Below are positions 13,367 to 26,559 of a DNA stretch of 64,000 bases, one piece after another. Where the stretch lies: the NCBI RefSeq assembly GCF_021401125.1, contig NZ_JACBFQ010000014.1:1-64000 (forward strand), given 5' to 3'. The translations under genes were made by a program, and so were the position numbers. The stretch comes from Xanthobacter sp. NM-59 (GTDB lineage: Bacteria > Pseudomonadota > Alphaproteobacteria > Rhizobiales > Xanthobacteraceae). Below the pieces are notes generated by a model that saw only the letters and a list, made by a program, of their open reading frames with translations, was not told the DNA's origin and ran no database searches. Numbering within the stretch: the first letter of the stretch is position 1; each line of letters begins with the position of its first letter.

Positions 13367-14242
13367 ATGAACCTGCCCCTCCCCCCCGGGGACATCCTCA
13401 AGCTCGCCGATGCGGAAGCGGTTCTCGCGGACGTGGCGCGCGAGCTGCCTTCGGGCAACATCGTCCCCTATCTCGGCCCCGCCATCAGCGAGGGAGTCAA
13501 TCCGGCCGTCCCCATGACTCCGGACGCCCTCGCGGCCTTCTTCGCCACCAAGGTGGCTCTGCCGAAGCGCGCCAAGGGCAACCCCTGGGCCTCGGCGCAG
13601 CACATCGAGGGCACGAAGCTCCGGGCCACCGTGGTCGCCTTGATGACGGAAGCCTTCACGCCGAAGGTGGAGCCCACCGCGCTCCATCGCCTTCTCGCGT
13701 CGCTGCCGCTGCCGGTCATCGTGGACACCTGGTATGACGGGACCATGCGCACGGCGCTCGCCGGGCGCTCGGACTGGGGTGAGGTGCAGGGCATCAGCCG
13801 CGCCGGCATCGGCGAGGACCGCTGGTATCGCTTCTACGATGCCGCCGGCGCCGAATCCAACCGCGATGCCGCCGAGAGCTGGAGCACCATTCTCTACACG
13901 CCCCACGGCAGCGTCGCGCCCGCCAAGAACTACCTCATCTCCGACGCGGACTATGTGGAAGTTCTGACCGAGATCGACATCCAGACGCCGATCCCCGACA
14001 TCATCAAGCACCGCCGCACGGAACGGACCTTCCTGTTCCTCGGCTGTCGCTTCCACGACCAGATGCTGCGCAACTATGCGCGGCAGATTTCCAAGCGCTC
14101 GCGCACACCTCACTTCGCGCTGGTGAACCCGGACGAGCTCACCAAGAACGAATTGAAGTTCCTGCTGGAGTACGCCATTACGCCCATCGCCGTTCCCACG
14201 CCCCGCGCCATCGAGATCATCATCGAAAACGCCAAGGCCTGA
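13367..14242 (+). CDS. SIR2-like fold protein in the nif operon, probably without normal NAD chemistry
   Basis: A protein of 291 residues with the layout of a SIR2-like (SIR2_2-type) domain. VPYLGPAIS (33-41) stands where GAGAS is expected, VDTWYDG (119-125) where T-N-Y-D is expected, a kept HGS (180-182), ISDADY (191-196), and [18 protein letters not shown] where FLGYSLDDP is typical. The catalytic-site Asn is thus Trp122, and the Gly-rich NAD loop is altered. It follows nifT by five bases and ends at a strong terminator. Assignment is by motif order; a role in nitrogenase maturation or protection is inference. Confidence 0.72.
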
Positions 14243-14410: not shown

Positions 14411-14426
14411 TGTAACTTTTCCAACA
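14411..14426. promoter_or_regulatory. NifA site 1 of nifB
   Basis: TGTAACTTTTCCAACA, exact TGT-N10-ACA, about 95 bases before the -24 element. Confidence 0.82.
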
Positions 14427-14448
14427 TGTCATGACCGCCCTGCCCCGC

Positions 14449-14464
14449 TGTTTGGAACGCGACA
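14449..14464. promoter_or_regulatory. NifA site 2 of nifB
   Basis: TGTTTGGAACGCGACA, a second exact TGT-N10-ACA, 38 bases after the first. Two consensus sites in tandem make chance unlikely. Confidence 0.8.
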
Positions 14465-14519: not shown

Positions 14520-14535
14520 TGGCACGCGAGTTGCT
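14520..14535 (+). promoter_or_regulatory. sigma-54 promoter of the nifB operon
   Basis: TGGCACGCGAGTTGCT, a perfect -24/-12 element, 55 bases before the nifB ATG. Confidence 0.94.
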
Positions 14536-14589: not shown

Positions 14590-16152
14590 ATGGACGCGAC
14601 GACACAGCACGAGGGCGATGCCATTGGCATGTCCGACAAGCTCGCGGAGATCATGCAGTCGAAGGCCGAGCACCAGGGTTGCGGCACCTCCGGTGGTTCG
14701 GGCAAGGCCAGCTGCGGCTCGTCCGCCGGCCAGGGCGACCTGCCCACCGAGATCTGGGAGAAGGTGAAGAACCATCCCTGCTACTCGGAAGAGGCGCACC
14801 ATCACTACGCCCGCATGCACGTTGCCGTGGCCCCCGCCTGCAACATCCAGTGCAACTACTGCAATCGCAAGTATGACTGCGCCAATGAGAGCCGCCCCGG
14901 CGTCGTCTCCGAGAAGCTGACCCCTGAGCAGGCCGCCAAGAAGGTGCTGGCCGTGGCCTCCACCATTCCGCAGATGACCGTGCTCGGCATCGCCGGCCCG
15001 GGCGACCCGCTCGCCAACCCGGAAAAGACCTTCAAGACCTTCGAGCTGATCAACAAGACCGCTCCGGACATCAAGCTCTGCCTCTCCACCAACGGTCTGG
15101 CCCTGCCTGACCATGTGGAGACCATCGCCGGCTTCAACGTCGACCATGTAACCATCACCATCAACATGGTGGACCCGGAAGTCGGCGCGAAGATCTATCC
15201 GTGGGTGTTCTGGAAGCACAAGCGCTATACCGGCTACGAGGCGGCCAAGATCCTCACCGATCGCCAGCTTCAGGGCCTGGAAATGCTCACCGAGCGTGGC
15301 ATCCTGTGCAAGATCAACTCGGTCATGATCCCCGGCATCAACGACAACCACCTGGTTGAGGTGAACCGGGCCGTGAAGTCGCGCGGCGCCTTCCTGCACA
15401 ACATCATGCCCCTCATCTCCTCGCCCGAGCACGGCACCGTGTTCGGCCTCAACGGCCAGCGCGGCCCGACCGCCCAGGAGCTCAAGGCGCTCCAGGACCG
15501 GTGCGAAGGCGAGATGAACATGATGCGTCACTGCCGCCAGTGCCGCGCCGACGCCGTGGGCCTCCTGGGCGAGGACCGCTCGGCCGAGTTCACCACCGAC
15601 AAGATCATGGCCATGGAGGTCAATTACGACCTTGAGAGCCGCCAGGCCTACCAGGCCCTGGTGGAGGAAGAGCGCGTCGCCAAGGTGGCCGCCAAGCAGC
15701 AGGAGCTTGAGAGCCTCGCCGGCGAGCAGAGCGACATCAAGCTCCTGGTCGCGGTCGCCACCAAGGGCTCGGGACTGGTGAACGAGCACTTCGGCCACGC
15801 CAAGGAGTTCCAGGTGTGGGAGCTCTCCACCGCCGGTGCCAAGTTCGTCGGCCACCGCCGCGTGGACCTCTACTGCCAGGGCGGCTACGGCGAGGAAGAC
15901 TCGCTGGAGACCATCATCCGCGCCATCAACGACTGCCACGCGGTGTTCGTGGCGAAGATCGGCGGATGCCCGAAGGCGGACCTCATCAAGGCCGGCATCG
16001 AGCCCGTGGACCAGTTCGCCCACGAATTCATCGAGAAGTCGGCCATCACCTGGTTCAAGGACTACCTGGCCAAGGTGAAGAGCGGCGAGATCGAGCACAC
16101 CGTGCGCGGTGACGCCGAGATCCGCCAGGGCGCCCTCATCAGCGCCGCCTGA
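14590..16152 (+). CDS. nifB: NifB, radical SAM NifB-co synthase with NafY/NifX-like C-terminal domain
   Basis: A protein of 520 residues. The SAM cluster motif is C84-NIQ-C88-NY-C91 in [16 protein letters not shown], followed by family motifs [15 protein letters not shown] and [10 protein letters not shown]. From about residue 390 a C-terminal cofactor-binding domain starts ([25 protein letters not shown]). NifB builds the 8Fe-9S-C precursor of FeMo-co. The first 50 residues are Cys/Gly/Ser-rich. AAGGAG precedes the ATG. First gene of the long operon. Confidence 0.97.
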
Positions 16153-16229: not shown

Positions 16230-16454
16230 ATGGCGCTGAAGATCGTCGCCTCGCAATGCACCAGCTGCTCGGCCTGCGAGCCGGAATGCCCCAACGTGGC
16301 CATCTTCGAGAAGAACGGCACGTTCGTGATCGATCCCGCGAAGTGCACCGAGTGCATCGGCCACTATGACGCGCCCCAGTGCGCCGCGGTGTGCCCCGTG
16401 GACGACACCTGCATCATCGACAATTCCTACCCCCGCTATCAGCCGCCCGCATAG
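16230..16454 (+). CDS. fdxN: 2[4Fe-4S] ferredoxin FdxN
   Basis: A protein of 74 residues with two cluster motifs: [12 protein letters not shown] at residues 9-20, and [18 protein letters not shown] near 37-54, where the extended loop between the second and third cysteines is typical of nif-linked FdxN. It is a small electron carrier, required with NifB in cofactor synthesis in other diazotrophs. Immediately downstream of nifB. Confidence 0.95.
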
Positions 16455-16465
16455 GATCCGCGCCG

Positions 16466-16783
16466 ATGAACTTCTCTCTCACGCCCGCCGCCAAGCGCTT
16501 CATCCGCCTCATGATCATGAGCGACGGCGGCCCCGGCGCCGGGTTCCGCATGGCGGTGTCGCCGGGCGGATGCTCGGGCCTCAATGCCGAGATCGCGGTG
16601 CTGCCGGAACCCACCCCGGGCGACGCCGTGGTGGAGCGCGAAGGCCTCAAATTCTTCCTGCCGGCCGAAAGCCGGCTGCTGCTGGACGGCGTGACGGTGG
16701 ACTTCACCGACACCCCCGCCAAGACCGGCCTCGTGTTCCACGACCCGAAGGCCACCGGCACCTGCTCCTCGCACGCGCACTGA
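16466..16783 (+). CDS. IscA/HesB-like protein with an altered C-terminal ligand motif
   Basis: A protein of 105 residues, clearly A-type (SPGGCSGLNAEI for the first cysteine). The usual C-terminal C-x-C is replaced by TGTCSSHAH: one cysteine with two histidines. This could give a different metal site or a carrier of other specificity. It begins 11 bases after the fdxN stop and is co-transcribed with nifB-fdxN. Paralogous to the canonical IscA at 11.0 kb. Confidence 0.9.
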   Translation: MNFSLTPAAKRFIRLMIMSDGGPGAGFRMAVSPGGCSGLNAEIAVLPEPTPGDAVVEREGLKFFLPAESRLLLDGVTVDFTDTPAKTGLVFHDPKATGTCSSHAH

Positions 16784-16817
16784 GCGCGGCGGGATCAGCG
16801 GATCGACGAGGATGGGG

Positions 16818-17369
16818 ATGAAGGCGGCCGAGTTGGACGACGATCCGGACGCCCTCACCCCCGAGGCGCTGCTGGCCAGCGCCGTGATGGGTGGGGGTCT
16901 GCCCGCCGCGGCGCAGGAGCACCTGGAACAGGCCGGGCTCTCCTACCAGCACTCCGAGGTGGCGCTGCGCCATCTGATGGCGGCGCAGGACATCGCCCCG
17001 GATCATGCGGCGGTGCTCATCGGGCTCTACCGCTTCTATTTCTACAAGGGCCGGCTGCAGGAGTGCCTTGGCGTCGCCCGCCAATGCCTCGCCAAGGCTC
17101 AGCGCGAAACCAACCTGCCGGCCGACTGGCGCGACATTCGGCCGACGGACGCGGAGTTCAACCGGTATGACCGGCTGATGCCGCGCTTCTTCATGTTCAC
17201 GTTGAAGGGCTACGCCTACCTCAACATGCGCCTGGGTGAGCTGGAGGAAGGTCGCGCGGCGGCCGAGAAGCTCCTGGAACTCGACCCTTCCGACAAGATC
17301 GGGGCCCGCCTGTTGATCGACGTGCTGAACCGGGCCGAAGCCGCCCGAGCGGAGCAGGACGATGACTGA
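16818..17369 (+). CDS. TPR-like protein of the nif operon (copy 1)
   Basis: A protein of 183 residues, mostly helical, with TPR-like helix pairs: HLMAAQDIAPDHAAVLIGLYRFYFYKG near 55-80, and FTLKGYAYLNMRLGELEEGR before the LELDPSD end of a repeat. It is paralogous to the minus-strand protein at 30.5 kb, sharing the order LY+...YQ/YKG, A+..L, W..W/DWRDI, RF.+.TLK..A+..+R. The second of two close ATGs is used because GAGG lies six bases before it. TPRs bind protein partners; the partner is unknown. Confidence 0.8.
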   Translation: MKAAELDDDPDALTPEALLASAVMGGGLPAAAQEHLEQAGLSYQHSEVALRHLMAAQDIAPDHAAVLIGLYRFYFYKGRLQECLGVARQCLAKAQRETNLPADWRDIRPTDAEFNRYDRLMPRFFMFTLKGYAYLNMRLGELEEGRAAAEKLLELDPSDKIGARLLIDVLNRAEAARAEQDDD

Positions 17370-18135
17370 CGACATCGACGAGGCCAAGAACTGGCTCGGT
17401 GACGACATCGACTGCGCGCGCTGCGCCCATGTGGACATGGTGGCCACGGGCAAGTGCCGCCTGAAGCACGCCTGCGTCAATGACCGCTACGCCCGGCGCA
17501 TCGACCGCTTCTTCAACTGGAACCCCGAGCTCGCCAACGGCTATGTCCGGCATGAGCATTTCGAGGTGCGCGCCATTTCCGCCAAGCATGCGGACGTGTT
17601 CGTGCTGCCGCCCTTGCTGGACGACCCCGAGGAGACGGTGCGCTGGAACGCCGCGCGACGTCTGCCCAAGCGCCTGATCCTACGCCTGCGCAACGATCCG
17701 CACCGCGAGGTGCGCATTCGCCTGGTGTCCCTGCTGGAAGATTCCGAGCTGATCCCCATGCTGGCGGATCCGGATTACTATGTGCGCCTGGTCGTGGCCC
17801 GCCGCGTCGCCCCGCCTCTGCTCTCGCGCCTCATCAATGACGAGGAGGAGCAGGTACGCAAGGTGGTCGCCCAGCGCCTGCCAGCCGAGTGGCTGCCGAA
17901 CATGATGACGGACCCCAATCCCATGGTCCGTCTGGAAGTGGCCCAGCGCCTGCCGGCGGACCTTCTCTCCGGGCTGATCCGCGACCCCGATTGGCGGGTG
18001 CGCCATGAGGTGGCCAACCGCATCGGCCTCGACCACATCGAGCCGCTCCTGGAAGACCCCGACGATTTCGTTCGTGAAGTGGCCCGCACGCGCCAGGCCG
18101 GCGGGCAGCCACTGATGAAGGAGATGCCACGATGA
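17362..18135 (+). CDS. LRV (leucine-rich repeat variant) 4Fe-4S protein, copy 1
   Basis: A protein of 257 residues. N-terminal cysteines C18-x2-C21-x10-C32-x5-C38 are the Fe-S module known from the Azotobacter vinelandii nif-region LRV protein. About eight repeats of about 24 residues follow (LLDDPEETVRWNAARRLP, MLADPDYYVRLVVARRV, MMTDPNPMVRLEVAQRLP). It overlaps the TPR gene by eight bases and nifZ by four, so the three are tightly coupled. The molecular role of LRV proteins is not established. Confidence 0.93.
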   Translation: MTDDIDEAKNWLGDDIDCARCAHVDMVATGKCRLKHACVNDRYARRIDRFFNWNPELANGYVRHEHFEVRAISAKHADVFVLPPLLDDPEETVRWNAARRLPKRLILRLRNDPHREVRIRLVSLLEDSELIPMLADPDYYVRLVVARRVAPPLLSRLINDEEEQVRKVVAQRLPAEWLPNMMTDPNPMVRLEVAQRLPADLLSGLIRDPDWRVRHEVANRIGLDHIEPLLEDPDDFVREVARTRQAGGQPLMKEMPR

Positions 18136-18449
18136 GCAATATTGTTCGCGACAGCGACGTTGTGGAGATTTCCGAGCCGCCTTACTTCTCCTTCGGAGAG
18201 AAGGTCAAAGCCAAGCGGGTCATCCGCAACGACGGCACCTATGCCGGAAAGGAGATTGGCGAGATCCTCGCGCGGAAAGGCGAGATCGGCTACGTCGTCT
18301 CCATCGGCACATTTCTCCAGCAATTCTACATTTATGGCGTTGAATTCACCGAGAGCGGCAACCGCGTCGGCATGAAGCGCAAAGAGCTTGAGCCCACCAC
18401 CCCGCGGGATGAAGAAGACATTCCCCTGCCCGGAGTACCCAGCGCATGA
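18132..18449 (+). CDS. nifZ: NifZ family protein, copy 1
   Basis: A protein of 105 residues with the NifZ fold pattern: FSFGEKVKAKRVIRNDGTYAGKE then GEIGYVVSIGTFLQQFYIYGVEF. NifZ assists late maturation of the MoFe protein P-clusters in other diazotrophs. The start overlaps the LRV stop (ATGA), and the stop overlaps the next gene in the same way. Confidence 0.92.
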   Translation: MSNIVRDSDVVEISEPPYFSFGEKVKAKRVIRNDGTYAGKEIGEILARKGEIGYVVSIGTFLQQFYIYGVEFTESGNRVGMKRKELEPTTPRDEEDIPLPGVPSA

Positions 18450-18688
18450 TGTTCGACACCCGCCTTCCCAAGTATGACTGGGGCATGAAGGTCAAAACCC
18501 TCATCGAGCTGCGCAATGACGGTTCCTTCCCGGACGCCCCGGCGGATGCGCTGCTGGTGGGCCTTGGCTCCGTGGGCGAGATCGTCCAGGTGGGCAACCA
18601 TACGGAAACCAACACGCCCATCTACCTGGTGGAGTTCAACGAGCACATGGTGATCGGCTGCCTTGAGGAAGAGATCGAGCCGGCGTGA
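18446..18688 (+). CDS. NifZ family protein, copy 2
   Basis: A protein of 80 residues: PKYDWGMKVKTLIELRNDGSFP then GSVGEIVQVGNHTETNTPIYLVEF and the end VIGCLEEEIEPA. It is a second NifZ domain, divergent from the first and shorter. The genes overlap by four bases, so they are co-translated and may form a heteromer; in some species a single NifZ carries the function. The first codon may be either of two adjacent ATGs. Confidence 0.88.
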   Translation: MMFDTRLPKYDWGMKVKTLIELRNDGSFPDAPADALLVGLGSVGEIVQVGNHTETNTPIYLVEFNEHMVIGCLEEEIEPA

Positions 18689-18737: not shown

Positions 18738-19067
18738 ATGACGCAGTCCCCTCATCCCAACGATTTCGATCGCCGGAGGATCGAGCGGACGATCCAGGGC
18801 CGCAAGCGCTACCGCTATGTGGAACCGCGCGTGCTCGCCGTGGCCGAGGGCTACCGCATCGAGAGCGCCTGCTGCTCGCGCAACGTGGACCCGGAGGGCG
18901 GTGTCGTGGACATCGCCCTGCTCCGCTTCGATGCCGACAACGGCACTTGGCATCTTTTTCGCAAGAACCACCAAAGCAAGAGTTGGGAACTCGACAGCAC
19001 CCATGCGCGGCTCATCGAGCTGCTCCAGCTCCTGAACGAAGATCGTGAGCGCAAGTTCTGGCAATAG
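18738..19067 (+). CDS. DUF3024-like small protein
   Basis: A protein of 109 residues: DFDRRRIERTIQGRKRYRYVEP then SACCSRNVDPEGGVVDIALL, the pattern I associate with DUF3024 proteins found in nif regions. The double cysteine and the D-P-E-G-G loop are the notable conserved residues. It shares the nifB operon. No activity is known. The start is the ATG after a GAGAG-type ribosome site. Confidence 0.8.
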   Translation: MTQSPHPNDFDRRRIERTIQGRKRYRYVEPRVLAVAEGYRIESACCSRNVDPEGGVVDIALLRFDADNGTWHLFRKNHQSKSWELDSTHARLIELLQLLNEDRERKFWQ

Positions 19068-19122: not shown

Positions 19123-19383
19123 ATGGCAGTGAGCGACACCGATTTGTCGGAAATCGAAAAGGTGCTGACGGCGGAGGAGCTCACCGCGTCCGCCTTCTCC
19201 GAGCTGCGCCAGCGCCTGCCCAAGCTCTCCTGGACCCGCTGCGACGCCACCGACGTGACCGAGGAGCCGTTCCGCAGCTTCCCGGTCTACGACATCCACC
19301 TCATCGACACCGCCGACCATTGCGTGGTGCTCACCACCGATCCCAGCCGCGCCACCGGCGTCATCCTGGCCAAGAAGAACTGA
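19123..19383 (+). CDS. small acidic nif-operon protein, unknown function
   Basis: A protein of 86 residues: helical start (DLSEIEKVLTAEELTASAFSELRQRLP), then beta-strands (YDIHLIDTADHCVVLTT) and the end ATGVILAKKN. It may belong to one of the nif-linked DUF families (DUF6129 comes to mind), but that is from memory and unsure. It sits between the DUF3024-like and DegT-like genes in the same operon. Confidence 0.75.
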   Translation: MAVSDTDLSEIEKVLTAEELTASAFSELRQRLPKLSWTRCDATDVTEEPFRSFPVYDIHLIDTADHCVVLTTDPSRATGVILAKKN

Positions 19384-19413: not shown

Positions 19414-20622
19414 ATGATGGACATGGACGACGATCTTGTCGCAGACCTGACGGACGACACCGAGGAGAGTGGCGCGGAAGCCGCCGCCATTCCGCTGTCG
19501 GACCCCGACATCACCGTTAGCGAGCTGGAGGCGGTCAATCTCGCGCTGCAGGCGCCGCGCCTGTCGTCCGGCCCCACGGTCGAGGCGTTCGAGCACGCCT
19601 TTTCCTCCTATCTCGGCCGCAAATATGCGGTGGCCGTGCCCAGCGGCACCATGGGCCTGCTGCTGACCCTGCACGCCTATGGGATCGGGCCCGGCGACGA
19701 GGTGATCGCCTCGCCCTATTCCTTCCGCGAGACCACCCACGCCATCAGCCTCGCCGGCGCGCGGCCCGTGTTCGCCGACATCGACTACTGGGCCGGCACC
19801 CTGGTTCCTGAAAAGGCCGCGGCGCGGATCACCGAGAAGACCAAGGCCATCGTCGCCTCCAACAATAACGGTCATCCTGCCGCGTGGGACGGGCTGAAGG
19901 AGCTCGCCAAGGCCAACCATCTCATCCTGATCGAGGATTCCACGGAGGCCATCGGCTCGCGCTACAAGGACGCGCTGGTGGGTACGTTCGGCGACACGTC
20001 GGTGTTCGATTTCTCCCAGCCCTCGCCCCTCATCTGCGGCGAAGGCGGAATGGTGGTGACCGACGACATCGACGTGGCGGTGGCCCTGCGGCGCTATCGC
20101 TCGCACCGCCTCGACGAGCGCTCCTCGGTGGTGGTGAGCATGACGGCGCCATACCAGGCGCCCATGAGCAACATCACCGCCGCCCTCGGCCTGGCCCAGC
20201 TCGAGCGCCTGGAAGAAATTCTGGAGCGGCGGCGCTATGTGGAGCACCTCTACTACAAGTATGTGCAGTCTTTCGAGGGCATCAAGCCGCCCTTTACCGC
20301 CCCCGAGGTGACCGAGGTGCATTGGTTCCTGTTCCTGGTGCACCTGGGAACGCGCTTTTCCAAGTCCAGCCGCGACGCCATCGTCGACGACCTGAAGGTC
20401 GAGAAGGTGGAATCCGCGGCTTATTCCAACCCGCTGCACCTCCAGCGCCACTATTTCGATCTCGGCTATCGCCGGGGTGACTTTCTCGTCACGGAAAAGG
20501 TCGCGGACCGCGCCATCGCGCTGCCGTTCCACACCCACCTCACCGAGGACGAAATCGAGTTCATCGTCGCAACGATGAAGGATGCCTCAATCAACGTAGG
20601 GGCGGGATCCGCCATCTACTAG
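19414..20622 (+). CDS. DegT/DnrJ/EryC1-fold protein lacking the PLP lysine
   Basis: A protein of 402 residues with the fold-type I sugar aminotransferase layout: VPSGTMGLLLTLHAYGIGPGDEVI (75-98), VFADID (119-124), LIEDSTEAIGS (172-182), and GEGGMVVTDD (209-218). In active DegT enzymes the Schiff-base lysine lies six residues before the Glu of GEGG (S-F-x3-K pattern). Here that place is S204 in DFSQPSPLICGEGG. It cannot form the usual internal aldimine. PMP-dependent 3-dehydrases of this family also lack the lysine, so dehydrase-like chemistry or a non-catalytic role are both possible. Genes on both sides are nif-linked. Confidence 0.88.
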   Translation: MMDMDDDLVADLTDDTEESGAEAAAIPLSDPDITVSELEAVNLALQAPRLSSGPTVEAFEHAFSSYLGRKYAVAVPSGTMGLLLTLHAYGIGPGDEVIASPYSFRETTHAISLAGARPVFADIDYWAGTLVPEKAAARITEKTKAIVASNNNGHPAAWDGLKELAKANHLILIEDSTEAIGSRYKDALVGTFGDTSVFDFSQPSPLICGEGGMVVTDDIDVAVALRRYRSHRLDERSSVVVSMTAPYQAPMSNITAALGLAQLERLEEILERRRYVEHLYYKYVQSFEGIKPPFTAPEVTEVHWFLFLVHLGTRFSKSSRDAIVDDLKVEKVESAAYSNPLHLQRHYFDLGYRRGDFLVTEKVADRAIALPFHTHLTEDEIEFIVATMKDASINVGAGSAIY

Positions 20623-20671
20623 GCACCAACAACACGCACCCAATAATATTTGGAAATGACAGGAGTCGTTG

Positions 20672-20989
20672 ATGTCCAGCGTGAGCATTAAGGTTATGCC
20701 CCTCGGAAAGACGGTCGAAGCCACCGAAGGCGCGAACCTGTTCGAGATCCTCGCCACGGTCGAGCCGCGCCTGCTCGACCGCCAGAAGGATGACAAGGAC
20801 GGCAGCTATTCTCACGTCTTCGTTCAGGAGGGCCGCAAGGGCCTCTCGAAGACCAGCCGCGAAGAAAATGAGAAGCTGGACACCATCGTTGGCGTCGGCT
20901 CCAAGTCTCGCCTCGCCTCGATGATCACCGTGCTCGGCACCGAGAATGTCACGGTGGAGCTGCTCGGCTTCGACTACGCCGGCCTTTGA
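20672..20989 (+). CDS. cysteine-free ferredoxin-fold protein
   Basis: A protein of 105 residues that tracks the [2Fe-2S] ferredoxin (adrenodoxin/ISC type) pattern: PLGKTVEATEGANLFEIL, HVFVQEG, LSKTSREENEKLD, SRLASM, and the end VTVELLGF. All four ligand positions are lost: the loop DKDGSYSHVFV has no cysteine where C-G-x-C-H-V-x-V is expected, and SRLASM replaces SRLACQ. The whole protein contains no cysteine. AGGAG lies six bases upstream. It is the last gene before the operon end, directly after the DegT-like gene. A scaffold or decoy role is inference. Confidence 0.82.
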   Translation: MSSVSIKVMPLGKTVEATEGANLFEILATVEPRLLDRQKDDKDGSYSHVFVQEGRKGLSKTSREENEKLDTIVGVGSKSRLASMITVLGTENVTVELLGFDYAGL

Positions 20990-21625: not shown

Positions 21626-21850
21626 ATGGACAATCAGAAGGTCATCATCCACGCCCGCTTCAACCCGAGCGGCGTCGTCATCGAGATCAGCGAGCGCCCC
21701 GAGGCTCTCTCGCCGCAGGATTGGTTCAACTACCTCTCCGAGCACGCTGCCCTGAGCTATCAGGCCCTGGCCGGTGGCCGTGGCGTGTTCCGCCTGGATC
21801 CGGCGCAGCTTGCGGAATTCAAGTCCCCCTTCGACTCAAAGGCCGCGTGA
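21626..21850 (+). CDS. small soluble protein, unknown function
   Basis: A protein of 74 residues: MDNQKVIIHARFNPSGVVIEI then a helical centre (SPQDWFNYLSEHAALSYQAL) and GRGVFRLDPAQLAEF. The arrangement strand-strand-helix-strand suggests a small alpha/beta fold. No cysteine. GGAG lies eight bases before the ATG. It stands alone between the nifB operon and the second LRV gene. I do not recognise the family. Confidence 0.7.
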   Translation: MDNQKVIIHARFNPSGVVIEISERPEALSPQDWFNYLSEHAALSYQALAGGRGVFRLDPAQLAEFKSPFDSKAA

Positions 21851-22094
21851 GCGTACGCTCCGTTGTTACGGCACCCCCTTAGCCGAAACAATCCGGACAA
21901 CTACGTAGGCTTCGCCCCGCCCCCAGGCGTGGGGCGAAGCCCACCATCACCGCCCCCGTCACGCTTTCGCGATCACATGCTGAGCCGGCAACCCTGGCGC
22001 TTTGACGAAACCGTGACTAGCTTTGCTGTGAGGAGGCCCGGATGCGGTCGCTCGCAGAAGGCGGCCCTCCGGAGTGACGGAGGAGGTTCCGGCG

Positions 22095-22862
22095 ATGGTG
22101 GCCAGCAGCGAAATGCAGGTCGAGGCCCTGGATTGGCAAGGGCGGCCCTTGCGGTGCCAGGATTGCCCCCATGAGGATATTCGCGCCGAGGGACGATGCG
22201 ACCTGGGCGTGGTGTGCGTGGCGGATCGACGCCACAAGCGCATCGACAATTTCTTCCGCCGCAACAACGAATTAGCCGCCCGCTATCTGACCCACCCCTA
22301 TTTCGAGGTGCGGGTGCTGGCGGCCAAGCATGCCAGTGTCTTTGCCCTGCCCGCGCTTCTCGGCGACACCGAGCCTGATGTGCGCGCCATGGCAGCAAGC
22401 CGCCTGCCGGTGGCCCGCATCGCGCCCCTGAAGGCCGACCCCGACCCCGCCGTGCGCATCGCTGTGGCCCACCGGCTGGAAGGCGCGGCCCTGGTTCCAT
22501 TTCTCTCTGATGAGGACTACCGGGTCCGCATGGCCGCCGCTCAGCGCGCGCCGCTGGACGCGTTGACCTTCTCGCTGCGCGATCCGGAAACGGAGGTGCG
22601 CCGCGAGATCGCCCGCCGCGTGGAAGAGCCCTCGCTTTCCCGCATGGCTGCGGACGAGGACCCCATGGTGCGCGTGATCGTGGCCGAGCGGCTGGCGCCC
22701 GCTCGCCTGCATCTGCTGCGTGATGATCCCGACATGCGCGTGCGCTTCGCCGTCGCGGAGCGTGCCGGCAACGCGGATCTCGAACACCTCAGCAAGGATC
22801 CCGTCCCCGAGATCGCGGAGCTGGCCCGCCTGCGGCTGGATGCACCGCAGGCTGAAGCGTAG
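22095..22862 (+). CDS. LRV 4Fe-4S protein, copy 2
   Basis: A protein of 255 residues. The N-terminal cysteines C21-x2-C24-x10-C35-x5-C41 have exactly the spacing of the copy at 17.4 kb. After them come FFRRNNELAARYLTHPYFEVRVLAAKHASVFALP (compare FFNWNPELANGYVRHEHFEVRAISAKHADVFVLP) and repeats such as FLSDEDYRVRMAAAQRAP. The ATG after AGGAGG is preferred to an upstream GTG. It is a clear paralogue of the nifB-operon LRV protein. Confidence 0.92.
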   Translation: MVASSEMQVEALDWQGRPLRCQDCPHEDIRAEGRCDLGVVCVADRRHKRIDNFFRRNNELAARYLTHPYFEVRVLAAKHASVFALPALLGDTEPDVRAMAASRLPVARIAPLKADPDPAVRIAVAHRLEGAALVPFLSDEDYRVRMAAAQRAPLDALTFSLRDPETEVRREIARRVEEPSLSRMAADEDPMVRVIVAERLAPARLHLLRDDPDMRVRFAVAERAGNADLEHLSKDPVPEIAELARLRLDAPQAEA

Positions 22863-26124: not shown

Positions 26125-26559
26125 TCAGGGATGCGCGGCGTGGCCCACGGTGTCGTGCGGATTGCCTTCCTGGTTCCGCATCCAGTCGGCCAGTTTGGCA
26201 ATGGCGCCATACAGTTCGTCACGCGCGCGCGTGTCGGCCACGGTCTCGTCCAGTGCGCCGCGCATGCACAGCAGCCAGGCATCACGCTCGGCATTGCCGA
26301 TGGGAATGTGCATGTGGCGCTGGCGCATGCGGGGGTGGCCCTTGTGGGGCGAATACAGCTTGGGGCCGCCGGTCCATTCGGTGAGATACTGCTTCAGGTC
26401 CACCTTCAGCGGACCCAGGTCCGGAGCGTGCAGCCGGCGGATGTCGCGGGCCTCGGGCAGCCGGTCCATGCGTGCGTAGAATTCCTCCACCAGGCGGTCG
26501 ATGGCGACCGCGCCGCCGATGCGCTCGAACATGGTGGGGGTCGCGACAGCTTCGGACAT
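26125..26559 (-). CDS. group 2 truncated haemoglobin
   Basis: A protein of 144 residues. TMFERIGGAVAIDRLVEEFYARM is the truncated-haemoglobin start. The segment HPRMRQRHMHIPIG carries the proximal His (about residue 82), and DAWLLCM holds the Trp (residue 95) typical of group 2 proteins. Such globins bind O2 or NO; in a nitrogenase island, oxygen or NO handling is the natural guess. A start with MSEAVATP is chosen; the upstream frame has no ribosome site. A sigma-54-like promoter lies 80 bases upstream. Confidence 0.92.
   Translation of the reverse strand: MSEAVATPTMFERIGGAVAIDRLVEEFYARMDRLPEARDIRRLHAPDLGPLKVDLKQYLTEWTGGPKLYSPHKGHPRMRQRHMHIPIGNAERDAWLLCMRGALDETVADTRARDELYGAIAKLADWMRNQEGNPHDTVGHAAHP

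Follow-up and report, generated by a model that had tools for sequence, protein, structure and literature searches.

We analyzed positions 1 to 64,000 of contig NZ_JACBFQ010000014.1 of Xanthobacter sp. NM-59 (the window), which carry a nitrogen fixation (nif) operon that includes a gene for a small ferredoxin-like protein, here called FDL. FDL has 105 amino acids and not one cysteine. Its open reading frame (ORF) is intact from ATG to TGA, with an AGGAG six bases upstream; this motif precedes the start in 15 of the 16 sequences compared and is absent in X. tagetidis (locus L022). The positions that are cysteine ligands (C1 to C4) in orthologs with four cysteines (four-Cys orthologs) are Q38, G44, S47, and S83 in FDL, and the protein fails the pattern C-x5-C-x2-C ... 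C of [2Fe-2S] ferredoxins of the iron-sulfur cluster (ISC)/adrenodoxin type. A preliminary description of this gene, made from the sequence alone, had reported an intact frame with a good ribosome site and the replacement of every ligand, and on these points it was borne out.

FDL is a homolog of the ISC/adrenodoxin-type [2Fe-2S] ferredoxins, with a kinship that is weak when judged from the single sequence. The NCBIfam model fdx_isc matched FDL with an E-value of 1.2e-8 (35.1 bits, below the equivalog cut-off of 132.1), there were no Pfam matches up to an E-value of 1, and the best match of FDL in a phmmer search of the PDB had an E-value of 0.0048. A profile made from 56 rows of the family matched E. 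coli IscFdx (1i7h; 6e-15) and Pseudomonas FdxB (3ah7; 8e-14). An AlphaFold2 model (mean predicted local distance difference test score of 83.9, predicted template modeling score of 0.75, five models spanning 53-84, all from an alignment rich in four-Cys relatives) has the beta-grasp fold and resembled [2Fe-2S] ferredoxins in a fold search, in agreement with the fold that had been proposed.

FDL is in the nifB operon, as previously described. The order of genes is nifB-Fdx-iscA-TPR-LRV-nifZ-nifZ-DUF3024-DUF6129-DegT-FDL, all co-directional (Table 1), and FDL begins 49 bases past the stop codon of DegT. Its place after DegT in a nifB-nifZ operon is that of the DegT-linked nif-operon ferredoxin orthologs. 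We scanned the window for sigma-54 type and NifA-type motifs; six sigma-54 type motifs with at most one mismatch were found, compared to 0.69 expected. Because a sigma-54 type site and two NifA-type sites lie upstream of nifB, FDL is probably expressed under nitrogen-fixing conditions. The preliminary description had placed FDL at the end of the operon, and this part is in doubt: a small conserved ORF with no Pfam or NCBIfam family match follows FDL, closely in Bradyrhizobium and after about 640 bases in the window, so that ending the operon at FDL may be one gene too early.

Table 1. Features of the nif operon and of FDL (positions in the window).
Feature	Position	Strand	Basis or remark
FDL, cysteine-free ferredoxin-like protein, 105 aa	20672..20989	+	ATG start, TGA stop; ortholog in 14/14 genus genomes
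AGGAG, ribosome-binding site of FDL	20661..20665	+	read from sequence, six bases 5' of ATG
Former cluster loop of FDL, residues 36-47	20777..20812	+	C1, C2, C3 replaced by Q38, G44, S47
Retained family-specific part of FDL, residues 48-98	20813..20965	+	H48, GRKG, EN..LD, VG.GSKSR.A, LG.E
S83 codon, fourth-ligand place of FDL	20918..20920	+	K, A or S in zero-Cys relatives
Two NifA-type sites, TGT-N10-ACA	14411..14464 (at 14411, 14449)	+	9 matches in whole window
Sigma-54 type promoter, TGGCACG-N4-TTGCT, upstream of nifB	14520..14535	+	exact match, one of 3 in window
nifB	14590..16152	+	NCBIfam TIGR01290, E 2e-207, above cut-off
YfhL-type 4Fe-4S dicluster ferredoxin	16230..16454	+	NCBIfam NF033683, 86.1 bits vs cut-off 86
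IscA/HesB-type protein	16454..16783	+	Pfam PF01521
TPR protein	16812..17369	+	Pfam search
LRV protein with FeS4 domain	17362..18135	+	PF05484
NifZ	18132..18449	+	PF04319
Second NifZ	18446..18688	+	PF04319
DUF3024 protein (putative start)	18738..19067	+	PF11225
DUF6129 protein (putative start)	19123..19383	+	PF19624
DegT/DnrJ/EryC1 homolog without catalytic Lys (S204), proposed FDL partner	19414..20622	+	family match, alignment
Small conserved ORF 3' of FDL	21626..21850	+	similar ORF in 72/80 named loci

The loss of ligands in Xanthobacter FDL is, by comparison with relatives, derived and subsequently fixed. Each of the 14 Xanthobacter genomes (the window genome included) has one strong copy of FDL. 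Twelve of these copies have no cysteine, one (L021) has three ligands (C1, C3, and C4), and that of X. tagetidis has C4 and a stray cysteine; because the zero-Cys state is common to 12 genomes, it is not a sequencing artifact. The FDL of the window is 90% identical to that of X. agilis. In a sample of 198 genomes from the family, all 12 strong orthologs from other genera kept the four ligands. The preliminary description had held that four-Cys homologs in closely related nif clusters would speak against its proposal. Such homologs exist, yet the proposal stands, as the loss appears to have arisen, and then persisted, within Xanthobacter.

We compared the window with the best 80 of 262 related loci, chosen by nearness to the window sequence. 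The ligand places read CCCC in 64 of the 81 loci; the remaining 17 overstate the share of degenerate copies, given this choice of the nearest relatives. The 11 Xanthobacter loci read QGSK (seven), QGSA (one), QGSS (one, the window), CGCC (one), and SGAC (one), and the losses outside this genus were FLWC (four Methylocystis-type loci), -DCC (Roseibium marinum), and C-CC (a Sphingobium metagenome-assembled genome, MAG), where the calls for X. tagetidis and Roseibium hinge on the alignment across a gapped loop. Since all 11 Xanthobacter rows have G at the C2 place, the ligands were probably lost stepwise, C2 first and C4 last. A 61-amino-acid FDL-like fragment with one cysteine (L048, from G139 in a different genus of this family) was regarded as truncated and excluded from the counts; it is perhaps a pseudogene. 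A collection of plasmids had FDL-like places in 3 of 72,556 records (two Paraburkholderia and one Methylococcus, 44-51% identity).

The loss of conserved residues was largely confined to the cluster site. We defined as conserved the positions shared by at least 95% of the four-Cys operons, and as lost those changed in all nine zero-Cys Xanthobacter rows. FDL lost 8 of 35 conserved positions (T7, C38, G40, A42, C44, C47, C83, and Q84), seven of them at the cluster site, in contrast to zero to two in each of 11 neighboring proteins: 2 of 352 in nifB, 1 of 127 in DegT, 1 of 76 in LRV, 1 of 33 in DUF3024, 0 of 49 and 1 of 33 in the two NifZ proteins, and none in the 4Fe-4S ferredoxin, IscA, TPR, DUF6129, and small ORF proteins. 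For the 4Fe-4S ferredoxin, the one row from Methylocystis had 12 of 50 positions lost and is probably another paralog. Dienelactone hydrolase had too few rows for this comparison. With conservation set at 90%, in the 56 rows of alignment A3 (39 of them four-Cys), none of the eight positions of the loop and fourth ligand was kept, compared to 26 of 32 elsewhere, so that FDL shares the motifs of the DegT-linked orthologs outside the loop. Within residues 48-98, 22 of 26 conserved positions were kept in at least eight of the nine zero-Cys rows.

FDL outside the cluster site is under purifying selection. The median ratio of nonsynonymous to synonymous substitution rates (dN/dS) among zero-Cys Xanthobacter copies was 0.165 (36 of 36 pairs usable). 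By region, the corresponding ratio of differences (pN/pS) was 0.56 for residues 36-47 and 0.165 for residues 48-99. Six residues of the former loop (Q38, D41, K42, D43, G44, and S47) are identical in all 12 zero-Cys genomes. Based on these results, we conclude that constraint on the cluster site was relaxed, with part of it fixed anew, and that the rest of the protein is held, slightly less tightly than in four-Cys relatives. The earlier proposal of a partner that recognizes the ferredoxin surface fits with this pattern of retention. So, in principle, does the suggestion that FDL is a titrating decoy, which would compete against an active ferredoxin with the same surface after its own cluster was lost. 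Against this, the 14 Xanthobacter genomes yielded no second strong ortholog, and their other matches were generic ferredoxins with E-values of 5e-7 or worse. We found no evidence for a decoy in these genomes and consider it highly improbable; a docking or scaffold subunit is the better wording.

Three other genes of the window lie near the operon. A second LRV protein with an FeS4 domain is encoded at 22074-22862, near the first; it was left out of the 11 neighbors because its match was the paralog LRV in 57 of 60 loci. A SIR2-like (SIR2_2) protein is encoded at 13367-14242, directly 5' of the nifB promoter region, and a bacterial-like globin at 26125-26550 on the minus strand.

The nearest neighbor of FDL is a predicted pseudo-aminotransferase. 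DegT was upstream of FDL in 77 of the 80 named loci, with a median gap of 35 bases; nifZ was present in 76 and nifB in 63, with some loci cut by contig ends. The best solved relatives of DegT are perosamine synthetase entries, in which the catalytic lysine (K in 3bn1, A in 3dr4) aligns with S204. In all 78 DegT homologs, including that of the window, lysine is absent here, the residue being S, G, F, L, A, M, or C, and D199, Q202, and P203 of the motif FDFxQP are constant. Because the lysine is missing throughout, we regard DegT as a pseudo-aminotransferase, by alignment, in four-Cys and zero-Cys operons alike, conserved together with nifZ. A study of photosynthetic bradyrhizobia lists BRADO5410 (a ferredoxin) and BRADO5411 (DegT) under nitrogen fixation (PMC3899966). 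By its order beside BRADO5411, we assign BRADO5410 to the four-Cys orthologs.

The constancy of the former loop might mean that a metal or a cluster is still bound by FDL through unusual ligands, such as the carboxylates of its DKDG motif, H48, or residues that a partner supplies. DKDG is identical in the 12 zero-Cys sequences, H48 is invariant in A3, and DegT could contribute the cysteine at its position 208, present in 77 of 78 homologs. However, the FDL loop itself has neither cysteine nor histidine, the Methylocystis loop is wholly different, with F, L, and W at the ligand places, and a cysteine at the DegT 208 place is also found in catalytic relatives such as ArnB. The plant mitochondrial protein mFDX-like, discussed below, is reported to have a single metal ion at its former cluster site (PMC10069907). 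Taken together, these observations make retention of a metal by FDL unlikely. Separately, we considered whether the DKDG loop is EF-hand-like and rejected this, since position 39, where the first acidic residue would lie, is K, T, or A.

Ligands were probably lost separately in Xanthobacter, Methylocystis, sphingomonads, and Roseibium marinum. A search of 39 Methylocystis genomes found a strong FDL match in 28 and a one-Cys copy in four, leaving out a second strong place (G234:C1:636812). The one-Cys copy was the sole strong copy in isolate B8 and in one small MAG, and stood alongside a four-Cys copy in two MAGs. Strong matches were found in 3 of 298 sampled genomes of the sphingomonad family, all with an alike shortened loop with three cysteines, two of them holding a stop codon that was taken as the gene end. 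Two named Novosphingobium loci have four cysteines. Among 45 Roseibium genomes there were two strong matches, one with three cysteines and one with four.

Two groups of these loci have features of their own. In the four Methylocystis-type loci with one-Cys FDL (L090, L092, L093, and L094), nifB is followed directly by nifZ-nifZ-DUF3024-DUF6129-DegT-FDL, with no Fdx, IscA, TPR, or LRV genes between, and nifB is cut by a contig end in three of the four. The shortened loop common to the sphingomonad orthologs L225, L226, and L227 is a third kind of ligand loss.

The trees of FDL and DegT differ on how these copies are related. The FDL tree, which has long branches, joined Xanthobacter with the Methylocystis one-Cys copies (support 100/97). 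A single origin of the degenerate copies was rejected when the DegT genes from these loci were tested (approximately unbiased test, p 0.00016, 15 rows), also when X. tagetidis was left out (p 0.00046). The DegT tree, from which two short sequences (L139 and L126) were omitted, set the one-Cys Methylocystis loci beside the four-Cys Methylocystis DegT (100/99) and placed X. tagetidis apart from other Xanthobacter with weak support. For FDL without the loop columns (the 56 rows of A3), joining the Methylocystis one-Cys copies with Xanthobacter (p 0.50) and joining them with the four-Cys Methylocystis copies (p 0.30) were both compatible with the data. We favor independent losses as the simpler account; FDL alone may instead have been transferred or converted.

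We believe, with moderate confidence, that FDL is a former ferredoxin kept as a metal-free docking, scaffold, or adaptor subunit rather than as an electron carrier. From its composition we infer that it has no cluster in vivo. Its ancestor would have been a four-Cys ISC-type [2Fe-2S] ferredoxin of the conserved nif operon that probably docked on a maturation complex. Selection may have kept docking through the family-specific surface (residues 48-98), while electron transfer was of secondary importance or could be dispensed with in lineages that did not need electrons from FDL. The cluster site would then have drifted and been refitted as a hydrophilic loop in which DKDG is constant, and the docking surface would have stayed. 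The complex that FDL binds most likely contains DegT, with NifZ and NifDK as candidate members of a larger assembly. DegT is the likeliest partner because it is a near-constant neighbor of FDL and is itself without catalysis. That docking is what was kept, that DegT is the partner, and that FDL acts in nitrogenase maturation are inferences.

Several observations weigh against this reading. Four cysteines are kept in 64 of the 81 loci, so the cluster matters there. Six conserved positions of FDL outside the loop also changed, and the former loop is relaxed. FDL has no DegT within reach in 3 of the 80 loci (L140, L145, and L153), no column of DegT changed in step with the loss of cysteines in both lineages, and a search for partners by coevolution gave no signal, none of the columns in other operon proteins being lost in both. 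The alignment behind the AlphaFold2 model contains many four-Cys relatives, and among the five models one was poor (53). In addition, dN/dS was higher where ligands were lost: the zero-Cys value exceeds those of Bradyrhizobium and kin (0.117, 26 of 28 pairs usable) and Azospirillaceae (0.136, 3 of 3 pairs), and in Methylocystis the value was 0.214 for one-Cys copies (6 pairs) and 0.034 for four-Cys copies (3 pairs). These ratios, like the loop and the long branches of the FDL tree, would also be expected of a gene in slow decay, its function gone and the gene carried along by the operon. Decay is nonetheless very unlikely, given the open frame in all 14 genomes at synonymous distances such as 0.81 (the window versus L083) and the 22 of 26 conserved positions kept in residues 48-98.

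A broader proposal, which we consider doubtful, is that the operon encodes a complex of pseudo-enzymes. In this proposal, DegT, as a fold-type-I pyridoxal phosphate enzyme that lacks the lysine, and FDL, as an ISC-type ferredoxin able to forgo its cluster, would structurally mimic a cysteine desulfurase-ferredoxin pair and act with NifZ as a scaffold or chaperone in maturation of the nitrogenase metal clusters; the cluster could have been discarded several times if the docking surface alone were needed. If docking is indeed the function of FDL, then some 'ferredoxins' of nif clusters would not be about electrons, and the fold would serve for docking within the machinery that matures nitrogenase. 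The series from four ligands to none among relatives makes the need for cluster or surface testable. NifZ-NifZ-DUF3024-DUF6129-pseudo-DegT-FDL is an uncharacterized, widely conserved module that may matter when nif genes are moved to new hosts.

FDL can be compared with several ferredoxins. The four-Cys orthologs of the same operon (39 rows of A3, 48-57% identical to the FDL of the window) have the same gene order and surface motifs and keep C-x5-C-x2-C...C, in contrast to the zero cysteines of FDL. E. coli IscFdx and Pseudomonas FdxB, the best profile matches in the PDB, have the same fold and, unlike FDL, four cysteines; they are [2Fe-2S] electron donors in Fe-S assembly. FdC (FdIV) of Rhodobacter capsulatus (9i2a) is about 20% identical to FDL, has a cluster, and belongs to a different gene neighborhood. 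FeSII (Shethna) of Azotobacter also has a ferredoxin fold and is solved in complex with nitrogenase components. FDL could be a nitrogenase-binding protection factor of this kind, lacking the redox switch, for the aerobic diazotrophs Xanthobacter and Methylocystis. FeSII structures were among the fold matches of FDL (5frt, 6yav, 9iez, and the MoFeP:FeP:FeSII filament 9cu1). The redox switch of FeSII, however, is its [2Fe-2S] cluster, for which FDL has no cysteine, and we consider a protective role improbable.

A ferredoxin that has become a structural part is already known from complex I of plants. Among the papers listed, no title or abstract opening reported a ferredoxin without cysteines from a nif operon. 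The closest precedent for FDL is mFDX-like of plant and algal mitochondria, a bridge subunit of complex I (PMC10069907; 7aqq_O, 8bef_O). It differs from FDL in compartment and complex, derives from mitochondrial ferredoxins, and is 13% identical to FDL in a fold alignment; the two share a ferredoxin fold in which cluster ligands were lost and the rest was conserved. The mFDX-like protein of plants is reported to have lost a ligand, to bind no cluster, and to be important for complex I assembly (PMC10069907). For mFDX-like, the absence of the cluster and the structural place in a complex are thus established, whereas FDL is known from its sequence. Because the plant protein lost a ligand and its cluster and is nevertheless structural, such a step is possible for FDL as well.
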